From a virus: 37,056 bases of DNA. The notes beneath the pieces were generated by a model. The model made no database searches, was not told where the DNA came from, and saw only the letters and a list, made by a program, of their open reading frames with translations. Of the stretch, positions 11,213 to 34,651 are shown piece by piece; the first letter of the stretch is position 1; each line of letters starts with the position of its first letter. The translations under genes were made by a program, and so were the position numbers. The DNA lies in the IMG/VR virus record IMGVR_UViG_3300009168_000078, positions 1 through 37,056 of that record. One strand, written 5' to 3'.

Positions 11213-11237
11213 AGATTAAAATTAAAATTTAATGATT

Positions 11238-11486: not shown

Positions 11487-11675
11487 TTATTTTATATCAA
11501 TGCCTAGTTTTTCCTTGGCATTGGTTATTACCCTACGCTTAAACTCATAACCATTGTTGATTTCACCAAGAGTCATTTCATCATCTTCAGGTAACACCGC
11601 CTCTATCGCCTCTTTTTGAATACTTTTTAATAACTCATCTGATATTTTATTTTTTTCTGTTATTATTTTTGTCAT
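11487..11675 (-). CDS. Small acidic hypothetical protein (62 aa)
   Basis: The ATG at 11675 (MTKIITEK) is preferred. The 5' end overlaps the 3' end of the HNH endonuclease gene by 29 bases. Sequence is Glu/Asp-rich in the middle (LPEDDEMTLGEI) with a helical C-terminus. Function unknown. Confidence 0.45.
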   Translation of the reverse strand: MTKIITEKNKISDELLKSIQKEAIEAVLPEDDEMTLGEINNGYEFKRRVITNAKEKLGIDIK

Positions 11676-12135
11676 ATTTTTTGTGGCACAAAGCACATAA
11701 TCTTAACCAATCGTTTATGTCCCTTAAATAATTTCCGCTTTTATTAGCCCAGTGTATTTTATGATTAACTAATTTACTTTTTCCGCAATGTTCGCAAGTA
11801 TCTGGCTTTCCTAAATGCTTATTAACCCAAGTATGTAATCCACCATATCCTACATCATCACCTCTCCAGCTATAATTTTTATCCTCTTTCTTTGCTTCGC
11901 TTATTCTTTGGCAAGTTATTTTTGATAACTTACTTCCTTTCTTAAAGGCAGATTTAGGAACTATGCCTTTTTTGGCTTCACTCATTTTATCTCTTGTTAT
12001 TAGAGAATTGATATAACCTAACCTTTCTTTCATTTTTAATCTGCTTAAACTAATTTGCGGACATTTTTTACCTTTGTTCCAGGGGACTCTTCCATTATTT
12101 AATTTATGTCCTTTTTGAAATAGATATTTTGCCAT
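11647..12135 (-). CDS. HNH homing endonuclease with NUMOD3 repeats
   Basis: A 162-residue free-standing homing endonuclease. Residues 15-75 carry NUMOD3-like DNA-contact units (WNKGKK, then KMSEAKKG, then FKKGSK). The C-terminal HNH zinc-finger nuclease has CEHCGK at about 113-118, NHKIHW at 124-129 and CALCHKK at 147-153. Such genes spread by cutting alleles lacking them. The surroundings fit a mobile insertion: it overlaps a small gene downstream and is preceded by two interleaved inverted repeats. Lys/Asn-rich composition differs from its neighbours. Confidence 0.85.
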   Translation of the reverse strand: MAKYLFQKGHKLNNGRVPWNKGKKCPQISLSRLKMKERLGYINSLITRDKMSEAKKGIVPKSAFKKGSKLSKITCQRISEAKKEDKNYSWRGDDVGYGGLHTWVNKHLGKPDTCEHCGKSKLVNHKIHWANKSGNYLRDINDWLRLCALCHKKYDKNNNRKK

Positions 12136-12144
12136 ATAATTAAA

Positions 12145-12196
12145 GCCCCCCTAAAGCGGTCAGCTGTCGGGGGGCATAAATTAAAAGCTGACCGCT
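12145..12196 (-). promoter_or_regulatory. Two interleaved inverted repeats upstream of the HNH gene
   Basis: Repeat one: AGCGGTCAGCT (12155-12165) with AGCTGACCGCT (12186-12196), 11 bp. Repeat two: GCCCCCC (12145-12151) with GGGGGGC (12169-12175), 7 bp. The arms alternate, so both stems cannot form as simple hairpins; they give either a strained pseudoknot or two alternative hairpins. The structure ends 9 bases before the HNH ATG. Its role is unknown; a start-codon switch, a terminator pair or a homing-site remnant are all possible. Confidence 0.6.
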
Positions 12197-12354
12197 ATTT
12201 ACTTAATTATATGTTATTTTTAAGGTCTGTCAACCACTCCACTCCTCGCTTGTTGTTTTTGGTTTGGTTTCATATGGCACTCGCATTCTATTTTATTACA
12301 TTTTGAACAACAATTACTTATCATATTTTTTATCTATTTTATAAATTTATACCC

Positions 12355-12457
12355 TTAACTCGGTGGGCAATATAGGAATAATCGGACTAAATAAATGGAA
12401 ATGCATTTACCACTACATATTGCTTGTTGTGGAGTTCGATTCCTACCACCGAGTTAA
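12355..12457 (+). other. Three-way-junction, tRNA-like element
   Basis: A 12-bp perfect outer stem joins 12355-12366 with 12446-12457. Inside it, GCAATAT (12367-12373) pairs with ATATTGC (12417-12423). A small GGA-GTTCGAT-TCC stem-loop (12431-12443) looks like a T-arm. The whole resembles the acceptor plus T-arm half of a tRNA or tmRNA, but no cloverleaf with a normal D-arm fits, so a working tRNA is doubtful. The flank 12197-12354 holds no gene I can support. Confidence 0.35.
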
Positions 12458-12536
12458 AAGTACAATTAGTCTAATATCCATATTCCAAAGAAATACGAAT
12501 ACCAAACCCAGCCGATTAACTTTTTTGTTCCATTTT

Positions 12537-12719
12537 TCATATAGTTATTATTATTTTTACTGGTAATACTATCAGGTATTTTGCATAACCATAAGCAAAA
12601 TTGTTTTTTGCTTTTTCGGCTTCTTGTGGAGTCTCAAAAATTGTTATTTTTTCTTTAAATAAATCTTGTGGAAAACCTGTTTTGAAAAGAATATACCCTT
12701 TGATTATTTTTTCTTCCAT
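12537..12719 (-). CDS. Small hypothetical protein (60 aa)
   Basis: The start is taken at ATG 12719 (MEEKIIKG), only 10 bases after the 3' end of the tRNA-like element at 12729-12798; longer readings would translate that element. The sequence alternates beta strand and helix (GYILFKTG, FETPQEAEKAKNNF, AKYLIVLPVKIIITI). Unknown family. Confidence 0.45.
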   Translation of the reverse strand: MEEKIIKGYILFKTGFPQDLFKEKITIFETPQEAEKAKNNFAYGYAKYLIVLPVKIIITI

Positions 12720-12728
12720 AATTTTATT

Positions 12729-12798
12729 GCCCGCAGGCAGGATTCGCACCTGACACTCTGGGCGTGCACGCCTTGTCCTACTCTTAGACGACTGCGGG
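12729..12798 (-). tRNA. tRNA-like element with an aberrant anticodon arm
   Basis: The acceptor stem is a perfect 7 bp (CCCGCAG with CTGCGGG). The D-arm is TCGTCT-AAGAGTA-GGACA, close to Glu/Gln tRNAs. The T-arm is CAGG-TGCGAAT-CCTG, with G for the usual T at position 55. The anticodon arm is the palindrome GGCGTGCACGCC, which leaves only a 4-6 base loop instead of 7, so no anticodon can be read with confidence. CCA is not encoded. It may be a decayed tRNA, a tRNA mimic, or a true tRNA with an indel. Confidence 0.4.
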
Positions 12799-12807
12799 TT
12801 AATTCTC

Positions 12808-12964
12808 AAGGGAGGGGGGAAATAATGGGCAAGTGTTTGAGCTTGCAGATGCTGTTAAAACTCAGTCGCTAAACTGTTCAGCACTTGGATAATTAACAAT
12901 AATTGTTCCTATTATTGAAACGGCTCACTGTCCGCCACCATCATTTCCCTATCCCCCTCCCTTG
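12808..12964. repeat. 12-bp inverted repeat bounding a structured gap
   Basis: CAAGGGAGGGGG at 12808-12819 is the exact inverse of 12953-12964, 133 bases away. The interior holds a CAATAAT/ATTATTG hairpin (12898-12918) and other short pairings, but no gene I can support. The right arm overlaps the 3' end of the 12949-13257 frame. Confidence 0.5.
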
Positions 12965-13257
12965 GGGATGACCCTAACCTCACTCGGTAATTCATTTCTT
13001 ATTCTATCGTCAATTCTCCAATTCGCTACTTTGCGATAAGTCAAAGATTTTTCTTCTTGGATATTTGACATTCTTTCTATAATCTCGGTTTGACTAGGAT
13101 TATGACGAATAAACTTCTTGAAATTAGGTACTTTATCCATATATTTAATTCTCCAGCCTTTCTGCCCTAACCTATGGACTGGAGGGGCTTGTGTAGTGAT
13201 AGCAATCACACTTGCATCTAGGGCCAAGCATATTTGATTATTTAATTTCCCCCCCAT
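12949..13257 (-). CDS. Hypothetical protein of uncertain reality (102 aa)
   Basis: From ATG 13257 the first 35 residues look unlike a normal protein. Residues 40-95 (FKKFIRHNPSQTEIIERM, YRKVANWRIDD) look plausible and helical. No SD and no recognised family. It lies between two intergenic inverted repeats. The real gene may be shorter. Confidence 0.35.
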   Translation of the reverse strand: MGGKLNNQICLALDASVIAITTQAPPVHRLGQKGWRIKYMDKVPNFKKFIRHNPSQTEIIERMSNIQEEKSLTYRKVANWRIDDRIRNELPSEVRVIPKGGG

Positions 13258-13366
13258 TACCAATTATCCCATTCGCCATTATATAACTCATATAAGCCGA
13301 TGATAGGCTAATAACAGAGATATAGACGGGTGATAACGAGCTTAGGGGGGGATTCCATTTTCCGTA

Positions 13367-13445
13367 GGCTTCTTTTGGGAAATATATCGGACACTTTGGA
13401 CAATTCCGATTGTCTTTTGTGTTCGGTTCTTTCCCAAAAGAAGCC
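13367..13445. repeat. 16-bp perfect inverted repeat with nested hairpin
   Basis: GGCTTCTTTTGGGAAA (13367-13382) is the exact inverse of 13430-13445. The 47-base interior contains GACAAT-TCCG-ATTGTC (13399-13414), a 6-bp stem with a tetraloop. There is no U-tract on either side, so a standard terminator is unlikely. It lies 15 bases past the NinB-like stop. It could be an mRNA 3'-end protector, an operator or a miniature mobile element; no flanking target duplication is seen. Confidence 0.6.
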
Positions 13446-13460
13446 GTTTTGTCCTATTGC

Positions 13461-13865
13461 CTAAATAAAATTTTTACTAAACTCCTGCGCAAAATAATCC
13501 TCGGGGCTTTGCAATTCTATCCCGAAATCAGCCACAAAAACCCTTATCTTTTCAATATAATCCCCAAACTCTATCGTTCCTAATTCTGTCGTTGAACGGA
13601 CAACAGGGAATTTACCAGAGTGGTCAACCAGAAATTTAGCCTTAAAGGTATTGTGCAATATCTCTGGGTCATTCCCCGTGTCCTCTGCTATAACATTCAT
13701 ACAGGCCCAGTAATAAGCGTTTTGGCTTTCTGTTCTTTTCTTTGATTTTCTCTTAATTGAAAACTGTACTTCTTTACCCTCCCATTTCTTGATATAGCTG
13801 TGAAACTCATCAATCTTGTTTATCCTTAAATTTCCATTTTCAATTTTACCGGAAAAGAAAATCAT
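13461..13865 (-). CDS. NinB-like recombination protein
   Basis: A 134-residue protein resembling the lambda NinB (Orf) family, single-strand-DNA-binding mediators that assist recombinases. Matching features are KRTESQNAYYWACMNVIAED at about 43-62 (family signature S/T-x-x-Q-N-xxYW), then STTELGTIEFGDYIEKI near 91-107 and GIELQSPEDYF near the end. Length matches NinB (about 140). It follows an OB-like protein and a RecB-type nuclease, together forming a recombination module. Confidence 0.7.
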   Translation of the reverse strand: MIFFSGKIENGNLRINKIDEFHSYIKKWEGKEVQFSIKRKSKKRTESQNAYYWACMNVIAEDTGNDPEILHNTFKAKFLVDHSGKFPVVRSTTELGTIEFGDYIEKIRVFVADFGIELQSPEDYFAQEFSKNFI

Positions 13866-13869
13866 AAAT

Positions 13870-14238
13870 CTATAATATCCCCTTTTCCTTATTCTCTAAA
13901 GAGGTAGTCTCAAGTTCGGCATTTATGCTTTCGGTTTTCACCTCATCGTCAACAAAAACCTTAAACTCTTTGAATTGTCTGCCAGTCTTTGGGTTTTTAA
14001 CTTTTCCAATATACTCAATTTTTACCTGTGAATTTAATGGAACATTAGTCATTCTGAAATCAATCACCGTGGACCCCCACACGGCTACCACTTCACTATT
14101 TGCTTGTCTAATTTCGTATAAACAAGAATTGTTGGGGCCGACATTGATACGCTTGTTTATATAAACTCCTTCAAGGACATTGTTTTGGTCAAAGTCCCAA
14201 GCGTTTGAAACGCTACCTTCTACTTCTCGATATGCCAT
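13870..14238 (-). CDS. Putative OB-like ssDNA-binding protein
   Basis: A 122-residue protein with alternating strands: VLEGVYINKRINVG, LYEIRQ, VVAVWGSTVIDFRM, VKIEYIGKVKNP and FKEFKVFVD. The pattern fits a small beta-barrel. An acidic tail follows residue 100 (Glu-rich), as SSB proteins often have. Its place between a RecB-type nuclease and NinB, with a 4-base gap to the latter, supports a role in DNA recombination or repair. Assignment is by fold pattern and context only. Confidence 0.5.
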   Translation of the reverse strand: MAYREVEGSVSNAWDFDQNNVLEGVYINKRINVGPNNSCLYEIRQANSEVVAVWGSTVIDFRMTNVPLNSQVKIEYIGKVKNPKTGRQFKEFKVFVDDEVKTESINAELETTSLENKEKGIL

Positions 14239-14297
14239 TTTTTTATCTTTCTTTGTCTCAATAGCTAACTATCAGTTGGCTGTTAATATAAAGAAAG

Positions 14298-14957
14298 TTA
14301 TTTTAAGCAATTATTTTTATGATAGGCGCAATATGTGACCCTCCAATCAGTAACCAAGGGCAATAACAAGGGATTTTTTGCTTCCCACGCTTTGTTTAAT
14401 AGACCAAATTCATCTCTAACCCTTTGCTCTATATTTTTGTCTGAAACCTTAAAAATAAACTCCTGCGTGTCCATATAATCCTTGGATAAATAAATCAACC
14501 TACCTTGCTTAATGCCCAGCCCATAAAGATAACTCCACAATTGCATTTGATGATTTTCTTTTGGCCCTTGTTTCTTAATAAAGGCAAAGCTATCTTTATT
14601 AGCCGACTTTAACTCTACTACCTCGCTGTCGCCATTAGTTAAAACAATATCAGCGTATCCTGTTGCTCCAAACTCCGGTATCTCAACCCTTTTTTCCGTT
14701 TCAATTTTAATGTCCTTACCCTCTAAACTCTTAGTCAGTATTTTTTGGATATAATCGTGTATCAAAGAGCCAATTTTCATCTGGGCCAAGTCCTTTGCTG
14801 TCATTTCATTGTCTCGTAATACTTTCAATCTTTGAAAATAGACACCCCTCAAACAAGAGCCAAGCGCAGAAATATGCCAGCTTGTTATCTCCCTTTCCTC
14901 TCTTTTACCGTCCTGTACTATCGCATTGTTAATCAAACTTGTTATTTTAATGTCCAT
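14298..14957 (-). CDS. RecB/Cas4-type PD-(D/E)XK exonuclease
   Basis: A 219-residue nuclease. Motifs in order: H67 (IGSLIHDYIQ), D103 (TGYADIV), E115-x-K117 (VVELKSA) and a Q-xxx-Y motif at about 139-144 (QLWSYLYGL), the complete RecB-family active site. C35 plus C210 and C217 recall the iron-sulfur Cys set of Cas4/AddB, though one Cys of the usual four is missing. It probably resects DNA ends for phage recombination with the OB-like and NinB-like partners. A strong hairpin ends 8 bases before the ATG. Confidence 0.85.
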   Translation of the reverse strand: MDIKITSLINNAIVQDGKREEREITSWHISALGSCLRGVYFQRLKVLRDNEMTAKDLAQMKIGSLIHDYIQKILTKSLEGKDIKIETEKRVEIPEFGATGYADIVLTNGDSEVVELKSANKDSFAFIKKQGPKENHQMQLWSYLYGLGIKQGRLIYLSKDYMDTQEFIFKVSDKNIEQRVRDEFGLLNKAWEAKNPLLLPLVTDWRVTYCAYHKNNCLK

Positions 14958-14964
14958 TGTTTAT

Positions 14965-15000
14965 CAGGGGGCAAACAATTATTTAATCATTTGCCCCCTG
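14965..15000 (-). terminator. Hairpin directly upstream of the RecB-type nuclease
   Basis: CAGGGGGCAAA (14965-14975) pairs with TTTGCCCCCTG (14990-15000): 11 bp perfect, 14-base AT-rich loop. It starts 10 bases after the upstream stop and ends 8 bases before the next ATG. No U-tract follows (ATAAACA), so it is more like an mRNA-stability or initiation-control element than a plain terminator. Confidence 0.6.
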
Positions 15001-15009
15001 TTTAATTAG

Positions 15010-15345
15010 CTAGTCATTATGTTCTAACTCCTCAGCTGACGGAGGTTGTAAATTAGCTTGTTCTAGTCTATCTAGGCTTTCCTCATAGGCTTTTAACAAA
15101 TTCTTTAAGGCCTCAATCTGCAAGCTTACACTGAAACAAGTGCTTTTAATTTCTTGCCAGTAATTATCTAGGTCTATTTTCAAGCCGATTAAGTTTTCAG
15201 CTTGATTTTCTTTGAAAGTATCATTTTGTTTTAAGCTCATTTTTTTTAATTGATAGAGGGACTGCTGGACTTCGTTGCCAAAAACCAGACAATCTCCCCT
15301 ATCAATGCAACTAAGTTTTTTTGGCCTTTTAGATTTGATTGGCAT
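15010..15345 (-). CDS. Hypothetical coiled-coil protein (111 aa)
   Basis: Basic N-terminus (PIKSKRPKK), Cys pair C13/C19, then a long predicted helix (LKIDLDNYWQEIKSTCF, then LQIEALKNLLKAYEESLDRL) and an acidic end. The ATG lies inside the 3' end of the upstream 55-codon gene. Family unknown. Confidence 0.55.
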   Translation of the reverse strand: MPIKSKRPKKLSCIDRGDCLVFGNEVQQSLYQLKKMSLKQNDTFKENQAENLIGLKIDLDNYWQEIKSTCFSVSLQIEALKNLLKAYEESLDRLEQANLQPPSAEELEHND

Positions 15346-15496
15346 AGTACCAATCCCATTTGTCTTGCTCGGCTTTTTCAGCGAACATTACATCGCTGAC
15401 CAAATCCGCTAAAAACTCATCACCATCTTCGGGGTCGTAACCATTTATTTGCTCTGGCTCAAACCCGACTAATTCACGAAACAATTCTCTAGTCAT
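15329..15496 (-). CDS. Small acidic protein (55 aa)
   Basis: A frame of 55 codons (MTRELFRELVGFEP start, TAA stop) filling the gap between two other genes and overlapping the next start by 17 bases. It is acidic with many aromatic residues near the end (KWDWYY). Normal composition and tight packing support it; function unknown. Confidence 0.5.
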   Translation of the reverse strand: MTRELFRELVGFEPEQINGYDPEDGDEFLADLVSDVMFAEKAEQDKWDWYYANQI

Positions 15497-15506
15497 AAAT
15501 TATTTT

Positions 15507-15710
15507 TTACTTTACTATATCTTCAACCTTTACTAATTTGCTTAATAACTCAATCAATTTGTCTAAATCAATCTGTTTCATTTCAACTTGATAGAAACCT
15601 TCTATTTTATATTCAGAACAATTTGGGTGCATAGTTACATTACAATAGTGCGGTTGACTAACCTTAACTTCCTTAATCAAGTATTTTTCTAACAATTCCT
15701 TTATGTCCAT
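15507..15710 (-). CDS. Small hypothetical protein (67 aa)
   Basis: Two helices flank a central strand region (KYLIKEVKVSQ, then IEGFYQVEMKQIDLDKLIELLSKL). C23 and C31 could pair. No family recognised. Leader TAATTT, no SD. Confidence 0.5.
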   Translation of the reverse strand: MDIKELLEKYLIKEVKVSQPHYCNVTMHPNCSEYKIEGFYQVEMKQIDLDKLIELLSKLVKVEDIVK

Positions 15711-15713
15711 AAA

Positions 15714-15875
15714 TTAAATTACTATACAAAGAGCAAACCACACTCCTACTAACAACGCACAACCTAGAGCGATAAATCCTAGCACCTTGCCTGTCATTAC
15801 TAACGCCTTTCTTATTTGTGCTGGGCGTTCTATGTGCTTGATGTAGGATTTATATAACGCTGAACGAGTAGTCAT
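15714..15875 (-). CDS. Small single-pass membrane protein (53 aa)
   Basis: A 53-codon frame from ATG 15875. Residues 1-28 are basic (TTRSALYKSYIKHIERP) and residues 30-53 are one strongly hydrophobic segment (VLGFIALGCALLVGVWFALC), so it is predicted N-in with a C-terminal membrane anchor. Early phage membrane peptides of this kind often act in host takeover or superinfection exclusion, but that is speculation. Confidence 0.5.
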   Translation of the reverse strand: MTTRSALYKSYIKHIERPAQIRKALVMTGKVLGFIALGCALLVGVWFALCIVI

Positions 15876-15928
15876 AGATTTATTTTTTACTCTTAACGAC
15901 CTTTCACTATTTATAGTTTAGCAAACTG

Positions 15929-16108
15929 TCAATCCTTGTCAATACTTCCAACTGTGGATAACTTTTCTCTTACCCTTAAAGCAACCCAGGCGTGAGATTT
16001 ACCGACAATCTTACCAATTTCTCTGGTAGTTAGACCCTGCTTATACATCAACACCGCTTTATCAGCCACCTCTTTTGTTTTTTTATCCTTGTAAATGTTT
16101 TTATTCAT
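15929..16108 (-). CDS. Small helix-turn-helix protein (59 aa)
   Basis: The start is ATG 16108 (MNKNIYK), immediately behind a sigma70-like promoter. Residues 14-50 form a helix-turn-helix (ADKAVLMYKQGLTTREIGKI, then VGKSHAWVALRVREKL) of the resolvase/sigma-region-4 type. It probably binds DNA as a small regulator. Its 3' end contains a consensus DnaA box. Confidence 0.6.
   Translation of the reverse strand: MNKNIYKDKKTKEVADKAVLMYKQGLTTREIGKIVGKSHAWVALRVREKLSTVGSIDKD
15953..15961 (-). promoter_or_regulatory. Consensus DnaA box
   Basis: TTATCCACA on the minus strand, within the larger shared motif AACTGTGGATAACT (plus-strand reading). It overlaps the 3' end of the small HTH gene. Confidence 0.45.
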
Positions 16109-16116
16109 ACAGCCGA

Positions 16117-16144
16117 ATGATAGCATATCGTATAGCCTTGTCAA
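16117..16144 (-). promoter_or_regulatory. Sigma70-like promoter, leftward
   Basis: On the minus strand TTGACA (16139-16144) and TATCAT (16117-16122) are separated by 16 bases. The predicted start lies only a few bases before the ATG at 16108, so the transcript would be almost leaderless. Upstream (16177-16240) are repeated TCGGACA and GTTCGGTT words that could be operators. Confidence 0.6.
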
Positions 16145-16220
16145 GTACTGTCCTATCCCACCCCTCGTAGCGCAGGACAATATCGGACAATTAGCATATC
16201 GGACAGCTTCTGTTCGGTTG

Positions 16221-16373
16221 TTAATTGTTCGGTTTGTCCAAGCGGAGAGGGGTGGGAGTTAAAGAGTTTTTTAATTCTTTTCTGAAATCTTCTTTTAGTT
16301 TTTCTCTTTTCTCAATATCCCAACAACCTAAAATATCTTTCAATTTATGTTTCAATTTTTTAATTTTGTCCAT
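16221..16373 (-). CDS. Small basic helical protein (50 aa)
   Basis: A 50-codon frame whose ATG at 16373 overlaps the helicase 3' end by 14 bases. Lys-rich amphipathic helices (MDKIKKLKHKLKDILG, EKREKLKEDFRKEL) and a Pro-rich end. Coupling to the helicase supports translation; function unknown. Confidence 0.45.
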   Translation of the reverse strand: MDKIKKLKHKLKDILGCWDIEKREKLKEDFRKELKNSLTPTPLRLDKPNN

Positions 16374-17256
16374 AAATAGATGTATAAGGAATTAACTGGC
16401 CATTAGAAAACTGAAAAATCATTCTTGTCATTTTTCCAGTTCGTCTGTTCTTAGCCAGATAAACTTTTGTATTGTTAGTCCAATCCGAACCATAAGGCTT
16501 GAAAGGTTCAACAAAATCGTCTTTCTCCCATTCATTTTTTTTCTTCCTAGGTTTATCAACAATAAACTTTTCCCTTTCCACTAAGAAAACAAAATCAGCC
16601 TCTTGACATACTAAGCTACTATCTCTCACGCTAGATAAGTCCATTTCTTCCCCTTGATATATTTTTTTAGTGTGGGCCACTAGAAATACTGTTACCCTTT
16701 GAGCCATTGCTATCTGTTTTAATCCCCTGACAATCGCCCCAATAACCAAGGAAGAATTATCTTTGTTGGATAGCGGGATTAAATAATGCAAATGGTCTAT
16801 AAAAACTACCTTACAGTCTCGATCTTTTTTAGCTTCTAAAATTTCAGTCTCTAAAAATTTTAACGTTCCGTCTATCAAAGCCACAGGAGCAAATATACCG
16901 TGTTCAGGTTCATATCCCATTTCAATAAATTTATCCTGTAGGTAATCTGGAGACATCTCGTAAGAAAACCAAAGACTATTTATATCATTTTTAGCTAAAC
17001 TCATTGTTAAAGTCTGACAAAAAGTAGTCTTACCTTGTCCGGTCTGACCCGATACCACTATCAATTCTCCCGCTCTTATCCCTCCAGCCATATCATTATC
17101 AAACTCTTCGATCCCAATGCTTATGGCCTTAGAAGTATCCTTGTACTTTTGGGCTACTAAATAAAGCCTATTGATTGTTTTACCTTCCGCTAAATCAATA
17201 TCAAGTAAAGTAAATTCACTATTATTTGGAAAAGTAACCATATATTTATTTACCAT
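16360..17256 (-). CDS. DnaB-like replicative helicase (RecA-fold domain only)
   Basis: A 298-residue ATPase. Walker A GQTGQGKTT at 70-78, a DnaB H1a-like LWFSYEMS at 95-102, Walker B FIDHLHYL at 152-159, the VFLVAHTKK segment at 190-198 and SSVRDSSLVCQEAD at 208-221 match the DnaB C-terminal helicase core. The DnaB N-terminal domain is missing (298 against about 450 residues), so it is either a minimal phage helicase or a loader-type ATPase. It overlaps the stop of the initiator gene and so forms an initiator-helicase pair like lambda O-P/DnaB. Met1 and Met6 are both possible starts. Confidence 0.8.
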   Translation of the reverse strand: MVNKYMVTFPNNSEFTLLDIDLAEGKTINRLYLVAQKYKDTSKAISIGIEEFDNDMAGGIRAGELIVVSGQTGQGKTTFCQTLTMSLAKNDINSLWFSYEMSPDYLQDKFIEMGYEPEHGIFAPVALIDGTLKFLETEILEAKKDRDCKVVFIDHLHYLIPLSNKDNSSLVIGAIVRGLKQIAMAQRVTVFLVAHTKKIYQGEEMDLSSVRDSSLVCQEADFVFLVEREKFIVDKPRKKKNEWEKDDFVEPFKPYGSDWTNNTKVYLAKNRRTGKMTRMIFQFSNGQLIPYTSIYGQN

Positions 17257-17986
17257 TAAGCAAGCTGTTAATCGTGCTTGCCGTTAAAAATACCTCTAAA
17301 GACCAGCCGACCTTTTGATAAAATTGGTCATTTTTAGAAAAGTATTTGTCTACTAAACCTTTCATTTTTTCTAAGCCAAACGATTTAAGAAAGGGTTTAA
17401 CTAACTTTTCGCATTTTCCCCAGTTAAAAATTGGCGCGTTATTTGAAATTTCCTCTAAGAAATTGACCTTAAAGTAATCAAACAATTCAGTTATTTCATT
17501 ATGGGTTGAGTTTTCTTTGACTTTTAAGGACGGAATGGGTGGCGAGGTTTCCGAGTCACTATTATTATCTTTATTATTATCTATTATTATTGTATCACCT
17601 TTCGTTATAGGTACTATAACCTTTCGTGATACCTCACTATAACCTTTCGTTATAGAGTGTAAAGTTTCTTTATACTCTGCTTTAGCCCTTATCAATACTA
17701 CGCTTTCAAACCATTTTGAGGTTGTTTTTAGATGTTTTGTGTCTGGTTCTTTTTCAATTATCTGTTTTTCAATAAGTTTTTTCATTACATCAAAAATAGT
17801 TTTTGATGTTGTCCCAAGCATTTTAGATATTGTTTCTTTAGAAGCATAACACCAACCCCCCATTTGATTTTTTGGATTATTGGAAAGATGATAAACACAA
17901 TCGGCAACACAATACTCCATTAAGGTTAGTTTTAACTTTTTTCTTATTTGATGAAGTATTAAAGTATAGGTTATTTGTTCCGTCAT
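17246..17986 (-). CDS. Replication initiator with internal origin-like repeats
   Basis: A 246-residue protein from ATG 17986 (MTEQITYT). Residues 8-100 form a winged helix-turn-helix (LTLMEYCVADCVYHL, then ASKETISKMLGTTSKTIFDV), the DnaD/O-like arrangement of phage initiators. Residues 110-130 (ITKGYSEVSRKV, then VPITKGD) are encoded by three palindromic repeats. A low-complexity Asn/Asp/Ser linker (134-152) precedes a helical C-terminal domain likely to contact the helicase encoded next. This is the lambda O plan: DNA-binding head, linker containing the origin, helicase-binding tail. A strong hairpin lies 12 bases before the ATG. Confidence 0.65.
   Translation of the reverse strand: MTEQITYTLILHQIRKKLKLTLMEYCVADCVYHLSNNPKNQMGGWCYASKETISKMLGTTSKTIFDVMKKLIEKQIIEKEPDTKHLKTTSKWFESVVLIRAKAEYKETLHSITKGYSEVSRKVIVPITKGDTIIIDNNKDNNSDSETSPPIPSLKVKENSTHNEITELFDYFKVNFLEEISNNAPIFNWGKCEKLVKPFLKSFGLEKMKGLVDKYFSKNDQFYQKVGWSLEVFLTASTINSLLNGK
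17592..17655. repeat. Three palindromic iterons inside the initiator gene (candidate origin)
   Basis: Copies centred on ACCTTTCGT start at 17597, 17619 and 17642, a spacing of 22 and 23 bases (two helical turns). The best copy, CTATAAC-CTTTC-GTTATAG (17637-17655), is a perfect 7-bp palindrome; the others have GTATCAC or GTGATAC arms. An AT-rich stretch (ATTATTATCTTTATTATTATC) lies just beside them at 17560-17593, like the unwinding element of an origin. Confidence 0.7.
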
Positions 17987-17997
17987 AGTTTTAACAA

Positions 17998-18070
17998 CCA
18001 AAAAGGCACTGACTATGGTCCGGCTCGTGAAAACCGTGTGGATTACTCCACATAATCAGTGCCTTTTTGG
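17998..18070. terminator. Long bidirectional hairpin upstream of the initiator gene
   Basis: CCAAAAAGGCACTGA (starting 17998/17999) pairs perfectly with TCAGTGCCTTTTTGG (18056-18070). The loop holds a second stem TGTGGA-TTAC-TCCACA. Both strands end the stem with T5, so it can terminate in either direction and separates the plus-strand regulator gene from the leftward initiator. It ends 12 bases before the initiator ATG, leaving no room for an independent promoter behind it. Confidence 0.65.
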
Positions 18071-18141
18071 CAATTAATAAAATTGATTTTTCACGATTAA
18101 CCATATACCAAAATTATAAATCTTTCCCATACCAAGTCAAC

Positions 18142-18150
18142 TGTGGATAA
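18142..18150 (-). promoter_or_regulatory. Consensus DnaA box
   Basis: TTATCCACA on the minus strand, within AACTGTGGATAACT. It lies 20 bases upstream of the -35 of the plus-strand regulator promoter. Confidence 0.45.
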
Positions 18151-18169
18151 CTCAACCGCAATTTTTCTG

Positions 18170-18199
18170 TTGACTTCGGAAGTCCGTATCGTTTATTAT
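18170..18199 (+). promoter_or_regulatory. Promoter with embedded palindromic operator
   Basis: TTGACT (18170-18175) and TATTAT (18194-18199) are 18 bases apart. The perfect palindrome GACTTC-G-GAAGTC (18172-18184) overlaps the -35, and a second copy of GACTTCGGAAGT lies inside the downstream gene at 18250-18261, with a third related site near 18359. This suggests autorepression by the HTH protein encoded here. Confidence 0.6.
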
Positions 18200-18215
18200 A
18201 CCGCAGGAGGAAAAT

Positions 18216-18572
18216 ATGGAGCAGTGGATAACAGTTAAAGAGGCCTCAAGACTTCGGAAGTGTACCGAAAGAAATATCCTCGACCAAATAAGCAAGGGAG
18301 CAATCCAAGCTAAGAAAGACGGCAGAAAATGGCAGGTGTTTATGGATACTACCGAAGCGACTTCCGAAGCATCTCCGCAGTTTGCCGAAGTTATTTCGGT
18401 ATTAAAAAATCAGCTTCAAGAGAAAGACAGTCAATTAAAAGAAAAAGACAAACAGATCGCGCTTTTGCAAGAGCAGACTGGACAACTTAATCAATTGCTC
18501 GCAATGGAAAAGAAACAAAACCTGCAACTAACGGAAAATAAAAAGCCTTGGTGGAAAAAAATAAAGCGCTAG
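18216..18572 (+). CDS. Excisionase/MerR-type HTH regulator with coiled coil
   Basis: A 118-residue protein, one of the few plus-strand genes, with a strong SD (GCAGGAGG, 7 bases before ATG). Residues 1-45 (WITVKEASRLRKCTERNILD, then GRKWQVF) match the winged-helix Xis/MerR-like domain. Residues 58-105 are a coiled coil (LKNQLQEKDSQLKEKDKQI) for dimerisation, and the tail is basic (KKPWWKKIKR). It probably represses its own promoter through GACTTCGGAAGTC sites and may control the early genes on either side. No integrase is present, so a recombination-directionality role is unlikely. Confidence 0.65.
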   Translation: MEQWITVKEASRLRKCTERNILDQISKGAIQAKKDGRKWQVFMDTTEATSEASPQFAEVISVLKNQLQEKDSQLKEKDKQIALLQEQTGQLNQLLAMEKKQNLQLTENKKPWWKKIKR

Positions 18573-18588
18573 CTTATGGCTAACGCTT
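18557..18588 (-). terminator. Terminator for the leftward sigma-like gene
   Basis: On the minus strand AAGCGTTAGC-CATAA-GCTAGCGCTT (18588 to 18564, one mismatch) is followed by TATTTTTTT. It lies 35 bases past the stop of the 18623-19132 gene and overlaps the stop of the convergent plus-strand gene, ending both transcripts. Confidence 0.65.
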
Positions 18589-18622
18589 AAAAAATTTGGC
18601 AGAGCAACCCGACTAACTCGCC

Positions 18623-19132
18623 CTATTCTTCAAAGATATTGATAAACTTTCGACGCACCTCACGCTTTCTTCTATAAAATTTCTTGAAACCAAGTTTCAA
18701 TTTTTGTTGAGCCTCTGGGGTATAAAATCCTTTGTTTGTTTCAAGGCAAACTAAGACTAACTCCATCTCATCTGTCGTTAAAGAAGCGTAGAATTGTTCT
18801 GCTGATACCTTATCCACAGTTAATATCTCCGGGGATTGGCTTTCATCCGAAAACTCTTTTTCAAACTCTTTGTCAAAATCCAAAGCGTGGACAACCTCAA
18901 CCTTTCGATTTCTGCCATTATCAACTGACACCCCTCTCTTTTTGGCGTCTTTGGCAGCCGTTACGGCGGCTTTCAAGATATAATAATCAGGAAAATCGGG
19001 GTTTTTTAACAAGATATGTCTAATTCCCAATACTGCGTCTTGATAGGCGTCATCATTTTTGAGAATCTTGCGTAAGCTAGTTGAAAGTAAATTGATTTTT
19101 TCCTCCCATAGTCGGTTAATGTCTATCGCCAT
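18623..19132 (-). CDS. Putative sigma-factor-like regulator
   Basis: A 169-residue protein with the strong SD AAAGGAGGTC before its ATG. Residues 5-70 resemble sigma70 region 2 (AYQDAVLGIRHILLKNP, then YYILKAAVTAAKDAKKRG, like the helix pair that binds the -10 element). A charged linker is followed by a C-terminal helical domain (TDEMELVLVCLE, then KKFYRRKREVRRKF) at the position of region 4. It could direct phage transcription. Similarity is by pattern only; a generic DNA-binding helical protein is the alternative. Confidence 0.4.
   Translation of the reverse strand: MAIDINRLWEEKINLLSTSLRKILKNDDAYQDAVLGIRHILLKNPDFPDYYILKAAVTAAKDAKKRGVSVDNGRNRKVEVVHALDFDKEFEKEFSDESQSPEILTVDKVSAEQFYASLTTDEMELVLVCLETNKGFYTPEAQQKLKLGFKKFYRRKREVRRKFINIFEE
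18810..18818 (+). promoter_or_regulatory. Consensus DnaA box inside the sigma-like gene
   Basis: TTATCCACA on the plus strand within coding sequence, followed by GTTAAT. One of four exact nine-base matches in the window. Confidence 0.35.
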
Positions 19133-19228
19133 AATTGACCTCCTTTGTTGATTTGTTAATAATCCTAAATCTACCCTACAACATCAAAAAAGAATGGTCA
19201 ATTATGGCAATTGTGTTTATTCTTAAAT

Positions 19229-19424
19229 AAAAAAAAGGCAATATCTCAATCGGGTTTTCTTAAACTGGATTGAGATATTGCCTTGCCAGCGTCTCGCTGG
19301 CAACTACTTGGTGCGCATAACTGCGATTATGTGGCATCTGCTATTTGCACTTAGCGAAGGAAAAATCGGATAGATTTATTCTATCCGATATTTTCCGTAG
19401 CGGAAATAATTGGTCGCTAAACTA
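19229..19424 (-). ncRNA. Candidate structured non-coding RNA ending in a terminator
   Basis: About 195 bases with few unpaired stretches. On the minus strand in order: TTAGCGA/TCGCTAA (19414-19420 with 19351-19357) enclosing a 16-bp stem with one bulge (19380-19396 with 19359-19374); CATAA/TTATG near 19326-19341; TTGCCAGCG-TCT-CGCTGGCAA (19283-19303); and a 17-bp stem (19235-19251 with 19268-19284) followed by T8. The last is a textbook terminator. The rest may be a phage small RNA or the 3' end of the ATPase transcript. Confidence 0.5.
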
Positions 19425-19718: not shown

Positions 19719-21377
19719 TTACTTTTGTCGGAAAGATTTTTCAACCTCTTGGGTTTGTTCTTCAATCTTTTGTTTTTGGGCTTGTTCTTTTTTTTCTTGG
19801 GCTAAGTCTACAAAATACTTTTGGCGAAGTTTTATCATTTTGTCTACCTGTTCAGACGGCAAAGAGTATCGGCTATACACGCGTTGTTTAAATTCGTTAT
19901 AATCTTTCTCTCTAACAGAAAATTGTTTTACAAACGGAACCTTAATTTGTATAGCCCCGCTTTCTTTAATTTTAATTGTGCAATGCTGTTGGGGTTGTTT
20001 GCGTAGCATAGTAATAAACTCCTCTTTCTGATCGTCCTTACCCTTAAAAGAACGACTGGTTTCCTCGTGGAACTCCTCAAAGTTGGTTATAGGCACCGTA
20101 GACTTACTATACCCGCTATTATTGGTACTTCCTTTTACGCTAGTCATACCGCTATTAACCGCCAACCCTAGTACATCGTCAACATCTTCTGGGCTTACGC
20201 TAGAGCTATTACCCTCGCTCATTCCATCAAGCTCCGAAGAAGAGCTACTTTCGGTGTAGGTTTCCACCGTCTCATATCCTCTCACCGGTCTAAATTTAGT
20301 AGCAGTCTGCACATACTTCACAATATCACTGCGATAGTCAAAAACATCATCAACCAAAATTTCAGCATCAGCTCGGCCCGAACGAAAGCATACTCTTACT
20401 TGAGGTTGGGTTAGCACAGCGTCCAGAACATCCTCGGTTAGCTGTCCAAACCTTTGGTGGCTTAAAATAAACCTCACTTTGCATTTACGGAGTTCCGATA
20501 GGGCCTTGGAGATATCATCAGAAACAAAATACTGAAACTCGTCCAGATAAACATAGAATGGTTTGAGACTATACTCGGGAGTTTTCATTCTGGAATATCC
20601 CGCCTGTAAAAGTTTATCTATTATCACAATCCCAATCATCTGCTGTTCGGCCGTTGAAATACTGCCCCTAAGATTGCAAAGGATTATTTTCTGTTCTTCC
20701 ATCGCTTTTTTGAAATCAATAGTAGACTTTTGCTGTCCGAATGTCCTACGGCCAATCTCGCTAGTAACAAATTTGTCCGACCTACTTTCCAGTGGCGCGG
20801 CATAATTTGTCCTATCCCTTAAACTTGTCCTATCAAACCATTCCCAGCGTTTTTTAATCCTGTCATTAGGACAGCCCTCTAAAATTAAATTCCTAAAAGT
20901 AGGATCAAAAGGATTGATAAAATCCTCCAGTTCATAAAGTGTCAAACCAGCTTCAATCAATGGCAGTAGTGCTCCACGCTCGTATTTCTGTAATTGTGGC
21001 ATTGTGTTTGTTTTCTGTCCTCCGAATACTTTACCGATAGCGTCCATCACTGTATCAGCGTGAGAGCTGGATGTTTTAACTGCTAGGTCATACTCTAGCA
21101 AATTAAGTCCTACGGACACGCCTAGGTCATTCGGGTCAAACAAGATTGTCCTATTCTCTAGTCTCCTTAGGACACAGAATTTTAAGATTTCTTTGTATAA
21201 TGTCCCATGTGGGTCAATCAAACAAAGTCCCAAACCAGCGTCAATGTCTCGTCTTATCATCCATTCCAGCAGTTTGCTTTTTCCTGTGCCAGTTACTCCT
21301 AAGAGGTGCATATGCCTATCTCGGTCTGGCCCAGTCAAATTAACTTCTTTGTCCTCGGCAGTCTTACCGATAATCAT
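19719..21377 (-). CDS. VirD4/TraG/HerA-like DNA-transfer ATPase
   Basis: A 552-residue motor of the type IV coupling protein/HerA class. Walker A GVTGTGKSK at 27-35, LIDPHG at 53-58, Walker B VYLDE at 276-280 (followed by FQYF) and ILSHQRFGQL at 304-313 match family motifs. A Ser-rich linker lies at about 376-400, and a Gln/Glu/Lys coiled coil ends the protein. It lacks the N-terminal membrane helices of VirD4, so it is a soluble form. In plasmids such ATPases bring relaxase-bound DNA to a transfer machine. It lies just after a replication-relaxation protein, and its ATG overlaps the stop of the -1 frame extension. SD GGGGGG. Confidence 0.85.
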   Translation of the reverse strand: MIIGKTAEDKEVNLTGPDRDRHMHLLGVTGTGKSKLLEWMIRRDIDAGLGLCLIDPHGTLYKEILKFCVLRRLENRTILFDPNDLGVSVGLNLLEYDLAVKTSSSHADTVMDAIGKVFGGQKTNTMPQLQKYERGALLPLIEAGLTLYELEDFINPFDPTFRNLILEGCPNDRIKKRWEWFDRTSLRDRTNYAAPLESRSDKFVTSEIGRRTFGQQKSTIDFKKAMEEQKIILCNLRGSISTAEQQMIGIVIIDKLLQAGYSRMKTPEYSLKPFYVYLDEFQYFVSDDISKALSELRKCKVRFILSHQRFGQLTEDVLDAVLTQPQVRVCFRSGRADAEILVDDVFDYRSDIVKYVQTATKFRPVRGYETVETYTESSSSSELDGMSEGNSSSVSPEDVDDVLGLAVNSGMTSVKGSTNNSGYSKSTVPITNFEEFHEETSRSFKGKDDQKEEFITMLRKQPQQHCTIKIKESGAIQIKVPFVKQFSVREKDYNEFKQRVYSRYSLPSEQVDKMIKLRQKYFVDLAQEKKEQAQKQKIEEQTQEVEKSFRQK

Positions 21378-22182: not shown

Positions 22183-23031
22183 TTACTCCAACAGTGAGTG
22201 TCGTTTGTCTCCCACCGGCGTCCACCAAATCTCTTTTAGAATATGGTCTAAAAACTCTATTGCAGTAAACCAATACATCACAGACCCTAATTGCTTATCG
22301 TCTGCCTTGCTGGCTATTTCCCTAAGATTATCTATTTTTTTGTCATCTGAAATAGTCAAAACTCTAAATCCAGTAATGCCAAACTTAGCCAAACAGCCCT
22401 TATCGCGATACCATATCCAATAACCCCGATATTTACGATAGATGTTTATTTTAGATTTCCTAGAGTTTTCTGCCTCTAAAAAGAAGTGCATTTTTTCTTG
22501 AGTGGATTTATCCAAAAGGATAAAGTAACTATCAGGCGCGACTGGGTAAACTATCCTTTTGTCCTGTTCAGTTTCAAATACTCTATCATTGAGTTCGTTT
22601 CGGCTTTCATTCTTCCAATAAAATAACTCATATTGAGGATTTTCTTTTAATGCTACAGTTAAAGCTGTCCTAAATTTAGAAGTCATTAAAAAATGCTCTA
22701 AATGAAATTGTCTAAGTTCTCCATTTCTTTTTTTAATATCTAAAAGTCTCGCTCCCTCTGGACCTAATGAATAAACCATTTTATGACTTCCCTCTGGAGG
22801 CTCTACTAAGTACCTTTGTCCAAAGGGTCTGTCTAGGTACTTATATTTCCATAGCTTCCGTAGCCGTCTGTTCGCTACCTCTTGAGAACAGCCTAGAAGT
22901 TTGGATACGCAGTCGCTCTCTAAGTATCTAAACTCTGCTACCAGCCTGATTATCTCCTCGTCTCTCTTTTGCCTTTTTAGGCCCTCGTCATATTCAGCTA
23001 ATCTTTTAAGTTTTGGACATCTTTTTTTCAT
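22183..23031 (-). CDS. Replication-relaxation family protein
   Basis: A 282-residue protein matching the layout of the replication-relaxation family (PF13814), found on conjugative and mobilisable elements next to VirD4-like ATPases. Residues 22-70 form a winged helix (IIRLVAEFRYLESDCVSKLL, then RRLRKLWKYKYLDR). KMVYSLGPEGARLL at about 84-97 and a RQFHLEHFLMTS helix near 107-118 are family landmarks. The C-terminal half has a beta-rich VAPDSYFILLD segment and FFLEAENSRKSKI near 163-175, which could be a nuclease-like core. First gene of the leftward early operon. The biochemical role of the family is poorly defined. Confidence 0.75.
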   Translation of the reverse strand: MKKRCPKLKRLAEYDEGLKRQKRDEEIIRLVAEFRYLESDCVSKLLGCSQEVANRRLRKLWKYKYLDRPFGQRYLVEPPEGSHKMVYSLGPEGARLLDIKKRNGELRQFHLEHFLMTSKFRTALTVALKENPQYELFYWKNESRNELNDRVFETEQDKRIVYPVAPDSYFILLDKSTQEKMHFFLEAENSRKSKINIYRKYRGYWIWYRDKGCLAKFGITGFRVLTISDDKKIDNLREIASKADDKQLGSVMYWFTAIEFLDHILKEIWWTPVGDKRHSLLE

Positions 23032-23344: not shown

Positions 23345-23374
23345 TTGATTTTTTATCCCTATATTTTGTATAAT
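23345..23374 (+). promoter_or_regulatory. Sigma70-like promoter for the O-like initiator
   Basis: TTGATT (23345-23350) and a perfect TATAAT (23369-23374) are 18 bases apart. The predicted start near 23381 gives a 5' leader of about 100 bases that can fold over the SD. Confidence 0.65.
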
Positions 23375-23417
23375 TTTAATCAGACTGATTTGGCCGTCAG
23401 TCGTCTCAAAGTTTTGG

Positions 23418-23477
23418 GTGGCTAGGCAAACGCTCGTTTGCTCCCTATTAGCCACTCAATCCTCTTGTAGGGAGAGG
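23418..23477 (+). promoter_or_regulatory. Leader hairpin/pseudoknot able to mask the SD of the O-like gene
   Basis: GTGGCTA (23418-23424) pairs with TAGCCAC (23449-23455), enclosing GCAAAC/GTTTGC (23426-23431 with 23436-23441). CTCCCTA (23441-23447), inside that outer loop, is exactly complementary to TAGGGAG (23468-23474), which includes the SD of the gene at 23480. Spacing (1 base and 12 bases in the connecting loops) allows an H-type pseudoknot that would block initiation. Confidence 0.55.
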
Positions 23478-23479
23478 GA

Positions 23480-23965
23480 ATGAAAGATAATTATACTCAA
23501 GTACCAAACTGTTTTTTTAAGCTCTTGCCATACTTAACAGAGGCTGAGATAAAAATAACTCTGCATATTATCCGACAAACCAAAGGCTATGGAGATAAAG
23601 AAGAAGATAGAATAAGTTATTCCCAATTTCACGAGGCGACTGGCGTACACCGCGAAGGGATAGGTAATGCCATTATCAGCCTAAAAGCAAAACAGATTAT
23701 CAATGTAACAAAAGATTTCAAGTATTCAATCAATTGGGAAGTGGTTCGGTTAACGAACCAGCCAGATTTTGCGGAGCAGTTCGGTTACCAAACCAAAGGC
23801 AGTTCGGTTAGCGAACCAGAAACGGGTCGGAAAACGAACCGAAGAGGCTCAAAATTGGTTCGGTTACCGAACACACAAAAGAAAGATGGTCTAAAGAAAC
23901 AAAAAAAAGAAAAAAAGACGGTTAAAGACTGGATTGATGAATTTGATAAAACTCACCCAGAATAA
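23480..23965 (+). CDS. Lambda O-like replication initiator with internal iterons
   Basis: A 161-residue protein. Residues 4-75 match the phage replication protein O N-terminal domain: NYTQVPNCFFKLLPYLTEAE, then TLHIIRQTKGYGDKEEDRIS, then FHEATGVHREGIGNAI, a winged helix that binds origin repeats. Residues 88-132 are an unusual Asn/Thr/Arg/Pro linker encoded by five palindromic repeats. The C-terminus is Lys-rich and ends with KDWIDEFDKTHPE. At 161 residues it is about half of lambda O (near 300), so a large helicase-recruiting domain is missing. SD GGAGAGG; own promoter and terminator. Confidence 0.8.
   Translation: MKDNYTQVPNCFFKLLPYLTEAEIKITLHIIRQTKGYGDKEEDRISYSQFHEATGVHREGIGNAIISLKAKQIINVTKDFKYSINWEVVRLTNQPDFAEQFGYQTKGSSVSEPETGRKTNRRGSKLVRLPNTQKKDGLKKQKKEKKTVKDWIDEFDKTHPE
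23743..23872. repeat. Five palindromic iterons inside the O-like gene (candidate origin)
   Basis: The copies are GGTTCG-GTTAA-CGAACC (23743-23759), GTTCGGTTACCAAACC (23779-23794), GTTCGGTTAGCGAACC (23802-23817), GGTCGGAAAACGAACC (23825-23840) and GGTTCGGTTACCGAAC (23857-23872). Start-to-start spacing is 23-36 bases. An A-rich stretch (23873-23920) follows, comparable with the AT-rich unwinding region beside the lambda iterons. Confidence 0.75.
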
Positions 23966-23969
23966 AACA

Positions 23970-23992
23970 GAAAAGCCCCTTACGGGGCCTTT
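23970..23992. terminator. Bidirectional terminator between convergent operons
   Basis: GCCCC-TTAC-GGGGC (23975-23979 with 23984-23988) is followed by CTTTCC on the plus strand. On the minus strand it is followed by TTTTCTGTTTT, a better U-tract. It separates the O-like gene from the leftward lysis genes. Confidence 0.75.
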
Positions 23993-24061
23993 CCGAAAAT
24001 CCAAAAAAGGTTAGGTGGCTATAGCAAGCTATGTCCAAACTAATCTCTTTCTATTTTTATA

Positions 24062-33087: not shown

Positions 33088-33783
33088 TTATCCCATTAGG
33101 CCGAGGGGGGTCTCAAAACTCCCGCCGTCTACTGGCAAACCATCGCTGTCATAGGCCTCCGTCCCTCCGTATTGGTTATTCATTTCTTTTAAGCGCATAT
33201 TGGTGTCCCACATCATCATTGCTTCCCATAATATCTTAGCGTCTGCTCGGTGTTGCACGGCCTGTAAAGCATTGGTTTGGTCATAATCAACCCCTGCCTT
33301 GTGCATTTCGGCTATTATAAAACCCAAGATAGCGTGAAATCTGCTTGGAAAGGCCCAAGAAGTAGCTTCGGCGATATCCGCGCTGGTCTTTCGGTAAATC
33401 AAATGAATGGTGGTTGATTTTGATTTATTACCAGTCAAGGCAAATTGATTTCTACCCAAATCAATGTAATATCTCATCATTGCGTCTTTATAGGCGTATC
33501 GGTCAATAAAAGAGCAAGGTCGGTATTCAAGCTGGTTATTATTGCTATCCACTGTAAAAACCTTAATTGCATTGCCAAAATCAGTGGGCAATGTTTTCAT
33601 TGTTAAGAAAGTATCGCCAGGACTTGATGTCTGCGAAACATCGTCTGTTTCAAGAATTTTCCAATTCCTTTCTTCCTCTATTCTTACCCGCGCCACATTA
33701 GCTAAGACATAAAACAAATTATCATCAATAGTATCTCCGTCTAATAAACTTTCCGTAAAAATTTTAAGTTCTGATCCTGTCAT
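33088..33783 (-). CDS. Head-to-tail connector (adaptor) protein
   Basis: A 231-residue, largely helical protein. The opening (TGSELKIFTESLLDGDTIDD, then YVLANVARVRIEEERNWKIL) and the middle (LIYRKTSADI, then FPSRFHAILGFIIAEMHKA) resemble podovirus adaptor proteins that dock under the portal (P22 gp4/T7 gp11 type). The C-terminus is Gly-rich and flexible. It immediately precedes the nozzle gene and overlaps the protease gene by 20 bases. Confidence 0.6.
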   Translation of the reverse strand: MTGSELKIFTESLLDGDTIDDNLFYVLANVARVRIEEERNWKILETDDVSQTSSPGDTFLTMKTLPTDFGNAIKVFTVDSNNNQLEYRPCSFIDRYAYKDAMMRYYIDLGRNQFALTGNKSKSTTIHLIYRKTSADIAEATSWAFPSRFHAILGFIIAEMHKAGVDYDQTNALQAVQHRADAKILWEAMMMWDTNMRLKEMNNQYGGTEAYDSDGLPVDGGSFETPLGLMG

Positions 33784-34651
33784 AATTGTTTAATTTTAAT
33801 AATTCATTAAGAGCGATTGAAATTTTAGTTAATATATTTTTTATTTTCTCCATAATCTTAATCCGTAGGCTCCAAGCTAATTTTTTGGCTTCTTCTGGTG
33901 AAAGGTCAACGAAAGCAAATCCGCCAAAAATAAACATTTTATCCACTAAATCTCGATGGAAATAATAAAGACCCTTATCGCCTACATCATCCCCATAAGA
34001 ATTTTGCACCACTAAATATAAAGCATTGTTAATCGTTTTCCAGCCAATCACAGCTAGAGAATGCCCTTCAGTGGGAGTTCCTTTTTTATTGATTATTCCA
34101 CCCTCAGAATAAGTCCACTCATTGCACCATAATACCCCCGTTAGAATAGCCGTTTTATTAAGATACAAAGCCATTCTAAACCCCTCAAATCCATTATCTA
34201 CGCTCCAATAAGTCTTTTTTTCGTGATATTGAGCGGGTAAGTCTAATTCGCTGTCCCAATTGGCCCAATTAGCCAAAAAGTCTCTGTTTTTATCGTCTAA
34301 ATGATAAGGTGAAAGGCCTTCAGGTAAAGACCCAAATTTAACTGCCGACTTGCAAGCCATTCTCAAGTCCGCCCCCCAAGTTTCCCAGTTTCCTTCTAAT
34401 TGTTTAATTTTAGCGAATTGCCACAATGGATCTAGCTCTATCTCCTCTTGGATTTCAGAGACAGCCGTTAAAGCAAAAGCAGTGCAAAAATCAGTATCCC
34501 CTTGGTTTTTAATTTTAATAGGATTTCTCACTATAAAATTATCGGGAAATAATGAAGTGTTGATCGCTCCAAATAGTTTCCTAAACTGAAAATCGCGATT
34601 GTCCGGTGGAGTAGGAAGTAATCCTCCCCTAAATTGTTCTTGATTTTCCAT
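33764..34651 (-). CDS. Papain-like (C1 family) cysteine protease
   Basis: A 295-residue protease. Gln50 and Cys56 lie in KNQGDTDFCTAFALTA (oxyanion and nucleophile), His197 in EGHSLAVIGW, and Asn217 in VQNSYGDDVGDKG: a complete papain triad in the correct order. The opening (LLPTPPDNRDFQF) resembles bacterial C1A proteases that lack a long pro-region. The C-terminal 35 residues are an extra basic helix (LRIKIMEKIKNILTKI). It lies between tail genes, so it may process virion or surface proteins, or be carried in the virion to attack host surface proteins. Confidence 0.85.
   Translation of the reverse strand: MENQEQFRGGLLPTPPDNRDFQFRKLFGAINTSLFPDNFIVRNPIKIKNQGDTDFCTAFALTAVSEIQEEIELDPLWQFAKIKQLEGNWETWGADLRMACKSAVKFGSLPEGLSPYHLDDKNRDFLANWANWDSELDLPAQYHEKKTYWSVDNGFEGFRMALYLNKTAILTGVLWCNEWTYSEGGIINKKGTPTEGHSLAVIGWKTINNALYLVVQNSYGDDVGDKGLYYFHRDLVDKMFIFGGFAFVDLSPEEAKKLAWSLRIKIMEKIKNILTKISIALNELLKLNNYDRIRT

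Follow-up and report, generated by a model that had tools for sequence, protein, structure and literature searches.

A short O-like gene with an internal iteron array suggests a second, lambda-type replicon in a tailed phage genome

The O-like gene and its leader

We analyzed a 37,056-bp stretch of viral DNA (IMG/VR record IMGVR_UViG_3300009168_000078, positions 1 to 37,056), referred to below as the window, with a focus on one open reading frame (ORF) and the repeats that it contains (Table 1). The ORF is intact, carries a Shine-Dalgarno-like sequence and is the only recognized plus-strand gene in its neighborhood, where it forms a stand-alone unit. Its product matches the Pfam family Phage_rep_O (E = 1.8e-9; 38.4 bits against a curated cut-off of 28.7) over the N-terminal half, and the best PHROG match is phrog_678, 'replication initiation O-like' (9.7e-14). 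The score against NCBIfam TIGR01610 lies below that family's cut-off (32.2 of 45.5).

We modeled the protein with AF2 from a five-sequence input, the single-sequence model being unusable. Residues 10–100 were predicted as helices and strands in a winged-helix-like arrangement (pLDDT of about 74–90 by block and 65 at residues 91–100), followed by a predicted disordered segment at residues 104–141 (pLDDT <50), which is encoded by the iterons, and a short predicted helix at residues 148–158. The protein is shorter than most O proteins: the ORF stops about 30 residues after the fifth iteron and encodes no counterpart of the C-terminal domain that binds the helicase loader in lambda O, an absence overlooked in an earlier note on this DNA. 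We detected no remnant of that domain 3' of the stop codon and no loader or helicase gene behind the O-like gene on its strand. Because the loader-binding domain is missing, we do not classify the protein as a full lambda O and liken it instead to the origin-binding half of lambda O. Such a protein may need the other, DnaD-like module of the phage or act as an inhibitor.

Upstream of the gene lies a promoter-like site, in a region where sites of this kind occur near chance level (13 found versus 11.1 expected). The transcript leader is predicted to be strongly structured: none of 200 shuffled sequences was as stable as the fold of positions 23370–23500 (z = −3.24), and translation control by this leader is possible. 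No Rfam family matched it at the gathering score. A CCCUA bulge in the leader is complementary to the Shine-Dalgarno region. On the opposite strand, a terminator-like hairpin would halt minus-strand transcripts short of the O-like gene. Copy control by an antisense RNA was considered and rejected, there being no suitably placed minus-strand promoter-like site. No DnaA-box match was found inside the O-like unit, and GC skew gave no origin signal.

Table 1 Coordinates of features at and around the O-like gene (positions in the window)
Feature	Position	Strand	Basis or remark
DnaB-like helicase, 298 aa, C-terminal domain only	16360–17256	−	Pfam DnaB_C 2e-22; phrog_19
DnaD-like initiator / helicase loader	17246–18001	−	phrog_186 DnaD-like loader 3e-9; phrog_678 1.1e-6
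Internal array, three copies of TATAACGAAAGGTTATA	17593–17654	−	Plus-strand starts 17593, 17615, 17638
TraD/HerA-like ATPase, coupling-protein-like	19719–21377	−	DUF87 1.2e-6; TrwB_AAD_bind 8.6e-5
Replic_Relax protein, MobC relaxase family	22183–23031	−	Pfam PF13814 7.2e-16, above cut-off; divergent from O-like gene
Promoter-like site TTGATT-18-TATAAT (10 of 12)	23345–23374	+	Consensus match only
Structured 5' leader (predicted)	23414–23477	+	Strong hairpin about 23414–23459; second hairpin pairs Shine-Dalgarno region
Short O-like initiator gene, 161 aa	23480–23965	+	Predicted winged-helix N domain, iteron-encoded disordered linker, short C-terminal helix
Iteron 1 GGTTCGGTTAACGAACC	23743–23759	+	
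Iteron 2 AGTTCGGTTACCAAACC	23778–23794	+	
Iteron 3 AGTTCGGTTAGCGAACC	23801–23817	+	
Iteron 4 (degenerate) GGGTCGGAAAACGAACC	23824–23840	+	
Iteron 5 GGTTCGGTTACCGAACA	23857–23873	+	
A-rich stretch, candidate unwinding element, 3' of iterons	23874–23950	+	77 nt; 73% A+T, 56% A
Terminator-like hairpin with T-run	23968–23995	−	Consensus match only

Five iterons within the O-like coding sequence

Within the ORF, on its coding strand, we found five near-palindromes of 17 bp each with the form GGTTCG-N5-CGAACC (23743–23873). Start to start, they are spaced by 35, 23, 23 and 33 bp, and relative to GGTTCGGTTANCGAACC they carry 0, 2, 1, 3 and 1 mismatches, respectively. The earlier note had described five palindromes followed by an A-rich stretch in a gene with a Phage_rep_O domain. 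The domain, the copy number and the A-rich composition all stand, with the corrections that the palindrome has two 6-bp arms around 5 bp, that the second and fourth copies are degenerate and that the array ends at 23873. The position of the A-rich stretch matches that of the 38-bp AT-rich region of lambda (PMC3349717).

A chance origin of the array is ruled out by shuffled sequence, in which 0.18 strand-matches to the iteron are expected against 10 observed, and by 30 simulated windows, none of which contained an array. The earlier note had also asked whether repetition at the amino-acid level could explain the repeats. The five iterons occupy reading frames 2, 1, 0, 2 and 2 of the ORF, thus all three frames, and 200 synonymous-codon shuffles of the gene produced at most two copies and never five. 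Amino-acid repetition as their cause is therefore ruled out, and the iterons represent a DNA-level signal. The rest of the window contains no copies of the 17-bp site.

Arrays and the same site in other O-like genes

We applied one test to all genes, in which a palindrome with two 6-bp arms around 5 bp is located and nearby copies are then counted. As a control, lambda O yielded four copies of TCCCTCAAAACGAGGGA with spacings of 20, 24 and 23 bp, which are its annotated iterons. Seven further O-like genes, from Providencia, Arsenophonus, Paraburkholderia phage IPK, Alcaligenes phage Piluca, Acinetobacter and the viral contigs L002 and L009, contained 4–5 copies each, located directly behind the N domain as in the window gene. 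Arrays in the genes from Deinococcus (Dgob) and L113 were not clearly above their own synonymous shuffles (12/200 and 15/200, respectively), and the test detected no array in L112 and CBP1.

Across 1.43 Mb of fetched loci, some of them overlapping, the scan returned 14 arrays, 12 of which lie within O-like or DnaD-like genes; the loci were partly fetched for carrying such genes, so this result speaks to specificity and not to frequency. The remaining two are a single intergenic array present in two records of a terminase relative (L076:8098–8165 and L075:3137–3204), where three GGCTATAAGTTATAGGC palindromes stand outside any initiator gene.

In scans for a two-copy pattern, the 17-bp site of the window recurred in the O-like genes of L002 and L009, which are otherwise unrelated viral contigs. 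The gene in L002, a high-GC contig, encodes a short O of 189–195 aa (L002:9458–10045). The O of L009 is longer, at about 293 aa (L027:8036–9055 on the full contig, L027), and is followed by a gene for a 199-aa protein that looks P-like and has no Pfam match. Seven genome contigs also matched the pattern; in none of them did the repeats fall in an O-like ORF, and the seven genomes yielded no Phage_rep_O match.

We aligned the N domains of 12 array-bearing proteins and found that Arg-Glu opens the predicted recognition helix only in the three proteins with a GTTCGG site. In Piluca, where one base of the site is changed (GTTCAG), the Arg is kept and Ala replaces Glu. This coincidence of helix and site would arise by chance once in 220, a value that ignores relatedness and the by-eye choice of positions. 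Such co-variation suggests that each O-like protein binds its own array.

A second initiator-type gene with an array of its own

The window contains another initiator-type gene, DnaD-like and adjoining the gene for a DnaB-like helicase (Table 1). Three copies of TATAACGAAAGGTTATA lie inside it, 22–23 bp apart and in reading frames 2, 1 and 2, and none of 200 synonymous shuffles of the gene attained three copies. Scanning the whole window for 6-5-6 arrays returned exactly two, one in the O-like and one in the DnaD-like gene. As anatomy, the proposal that this phage carries two initiator-type genes, each with its own internal array of a 17-bp palindrome of unrelated sequence, is therefore borne out.

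Following a suggestion in the earlier note, we searched relatives for the two modules. Homologues of the DnaD-like gene lie beside or near the helicase gene in two 50-kb phages (G043 and G044) and have the C-terminal part of the protein in common with the window, so the DnaD–DnaB pair is present in these helicase relatives; an O-like gene was not detectable in either. No array was found in the DnaD-like genes of G043 and G044. L117 and L118 also have DnaD genes without an array, so the array at 17.6 kb is not conserved within the DnaD module.

Neighboring genes, relatives and assembly

Two minus-strand genes beside the O-like unit encode a relaxase-type and a coupling-type protein. The relaxase family, PF13814, is given as a MobC family of mobilizable elements, where it is found with VirD4 (PMC5357655). 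Matches of the ATPase to TraD models (about 1e-5) fall well short of the model cut-offs. Together, the MobC-type relaxase and TraD-like neighbors hint at a plasmid-like link. One terminase relative (G007) carries the same ATPase and Replic_Relax pair (L123:2863–5109 and 5206–6093), so the pair may belong to the phage group and not to the O-like module. Elsewhere in the window, a small excisionase-like HTH gene is located at 18216–18572 (plus strand), with no integrase or partition gene recognized, and a papain-family protease (Peptidase_C1, Pfam 2.8e-7) with relatives in G007 and G043 is encoded in the late/tail region (33764–34651, minus strand).

Among 32 records with a related terminase (TerL), many of which are fragments, no Phage_rep_O match exceeded the curated cut-off, and one record had a weak match (E = 5e-4). 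Searches of viral contigs for close relatives returned none for the O-like protein, the Replic_Relax protein or the ATPase; nor did we find any for Replic_Relax in plasmids or phages, or for the DnaD-like protein in phages. The 32 records include a near-identical relative, contig G003 (L127), which is 99.98% identical to window positions 1–19315 and ends before the O-like region. This contig continues over a gap of 1,135 bp into the right end of the window, with 94.9% identity over 936 bp; the fall in identity lies in a large virion protein gene (35003–37042). If the window and G003 represent one kind of genome, its length would be about 38.2 kb and it would be circular or permuted. An assembly chimera is made less likely by G003, which covers positions 1–19315 and joins both ends, although the stretch 19.3–36.1 kb, and with it the O-like region, is present in one assembly only.

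The earlier note had raised the acquisition of one of the two modules from another element. For the O-like module this is likely, since the gene stands alone on its strand as a self-contained transcription unit and the relatives, many of them fragmentary records, have no clear Phage_rep_O gene. Judged by these features, the module looks like an addition to the genome.

Discussion

The findings suggest that this phage can begin DNA copying at two places. We consider it probable that the O-like locus is a second, stand-alone replicon of the lambda type, with the origin located inside the gene for its initiator. The O-like protein would bind the five 17-bp palindromes in its own coding sequence, probably with one dimer per site, and the bound complex would open the adjacent A-rich stretch, where replication would start. 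The protein lacks the C-terminal domain of lambda O, so the helicase must come by another route: the short C-terminal helix, the DnaD-like and DnaB-like pair of the phage, or the host could deliver it. The main replication module would consist of the DnaB-like helicase and the DnaD-like gene, inside which lies the three-copy array. The O-like replicon was probably acquired and would most plausibly serve a different stage or host state, for example plasmid-like persistence, which is made plausible by the adjoining relaxase-type and coupling-type genes. The two initiators may be divided between plasmid and lytic roles, as the earlier note had proposed, but no partition gene or integrase was recognized. 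Counting against a second replicon are the missing C-terminal domain, the lack of a loader or helicase gene behind the O-like gene, the lack of a DnaA-box match in its unit, the DnaD genes elsewhere that have no array, and the compared O-like genes in which the array is doubtful or undetected.

A more extensive reading, which we regard as rather unlikely, is that of a tailed phage that, besides a lytic replicon of its own, carries a plasmid-like cassette (a minimal O-type replicon, a MobC-type relaxase and a coupling-type ATPase). Such a phage could persist, and perhaps be mobilized, as a plasmid, and its loader-less O would borrow the other loader and the helicase of the phage.

The missing loader-binding domain can also be accommodated by a single replicon split between two loci, in which the O-like protein is the origin binder, the DnaD-like protein is its helicase loader and the 17.6-kb array is regulatory. 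The conserved C-terminal part of the DnaD-like protein, shared with G043 and G044, and its proximity to the helicase gene fit this arrangement. However, those same two phages have no detectable O-like gene, the DnaD-like gene has a mixed-frame array of its own, and about 5.5 kb separates the two genes, which lie on opposite strands. We therefore consider a split replicon unlikely.

A protein consisting of an N domain only could instead serve exclusion or incompatibility, with the loader-less O fragment and its iterons acting as a dominant-negative decoy against phages with GTTCGG iterons. The use of the same 17-bp site by O genes of other phages is consistent with this, as is the block to lambda replication by ectopic copies of the lambda origin (PMC4488673; PMC3349717). 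Against it, the phage's own five iterons would be affected too, no competitor in a shared host is known, and the locus includes an A-rich stretch, though plasmid-borne inhibition of lambda works without one (PMC3349717). We consider a decoy unlikely as well.

We find it improbable that the protein is an autoregulated DNA-binding regulator whose repeats are operators and not an origin. In Foldseek, the model was closest to winged-helix transcription regulators of the MarR, Crp/FNR and CodY types, with no match below E = 0.001, and regulated expression is suggested by the structured leader together with the divergent promoter-like sites. However, the 17-bp sites lie 260–395 bp into the gene, with none elsewhere in the window, and the sequence families matched are replication O proteins, not regulators. 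Least probable is a non-functional, acquired relic of another phage's replication gene: the shortness of the protein and the lack of a clear Phage_rep_O gene in relatives would fit, but the ORF is intact with a Shine-Dalgarno-like sequence, a promoter-like site and a leader, and the O of L002, which has these iterons too, is of comparably small size.

If the O-like locus is a second replicon, two lambda-type origins with different initiator genes and site specificities would provide a compact model of replication split between life stages. An O protein without a loader domain would be a model for whether such a protein starts or blocks replication, and the two recognition-helix residues linked to iteron sequence are a first step toward predicting origin specificity from the sequences of O proteins.

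Comparison with known systems

The same iteron, in four copies, accompanies the O-like protein of L002 (IMGVR_UViG_3300036760_000968), which is 35% identical to the window protein over residues 1–149. L002 differs in being a high-GC phage whose O gene is in line with an operon leading to the terminase, and no second array was found in the 13.9 kb scanned. Mobilizable elements with a PF13814 MobC-type relaxase and a VirD4-type coupling protein are similar in having relaxase-type and coupling-type genes beside a replicon, whereas the candidate pair described here is located on a tailed-phage genome.

With gene O and ori-lambda of phage lambda, the locus shares a Phage_rep_O-type N domain, followed by palindromic iterons in the coding sequence and then by an A-rich stretch. 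In lambda, iterons of 17–18 bp, 20–24 bp apart, lie directly behind the N domain (PMC3349717, PMC5043065). The window differs from lambda in the sequence of the site, in having five iterons instead of four and in two spacings of 33–35 bp. Moreover, its protein has 161 aa instead of 299 and no C-terminal domain, and its gene is not followed by a gene P and stands alone on the opposite strand.

Two replicons in one phage are also found in P1, which has the oriR plasmid replicon and the RepL/oriL lytic replicon. RepA and RepL of P1 belong to other protein families. In the window, by comparison, both genes are of the O/DnaD type with lambda-like 6-5-6 arrays, and any division of labor between them is putative. 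For P1, a location of the lytic replicon within the gene for its initiator has been proposed (PMC9948254). Origins of the lambda type within gene O are already known, as are phages with two replicons such as P1, and a search of open-licence papers returned no case of the two-initiator combination. What is new, to our knowledge, is that one small genome combines two initiators of the O/DnaD type whose 6-5-6 arrays differ, and that one of the pair is a stand-alone O without the C-terminal domain.
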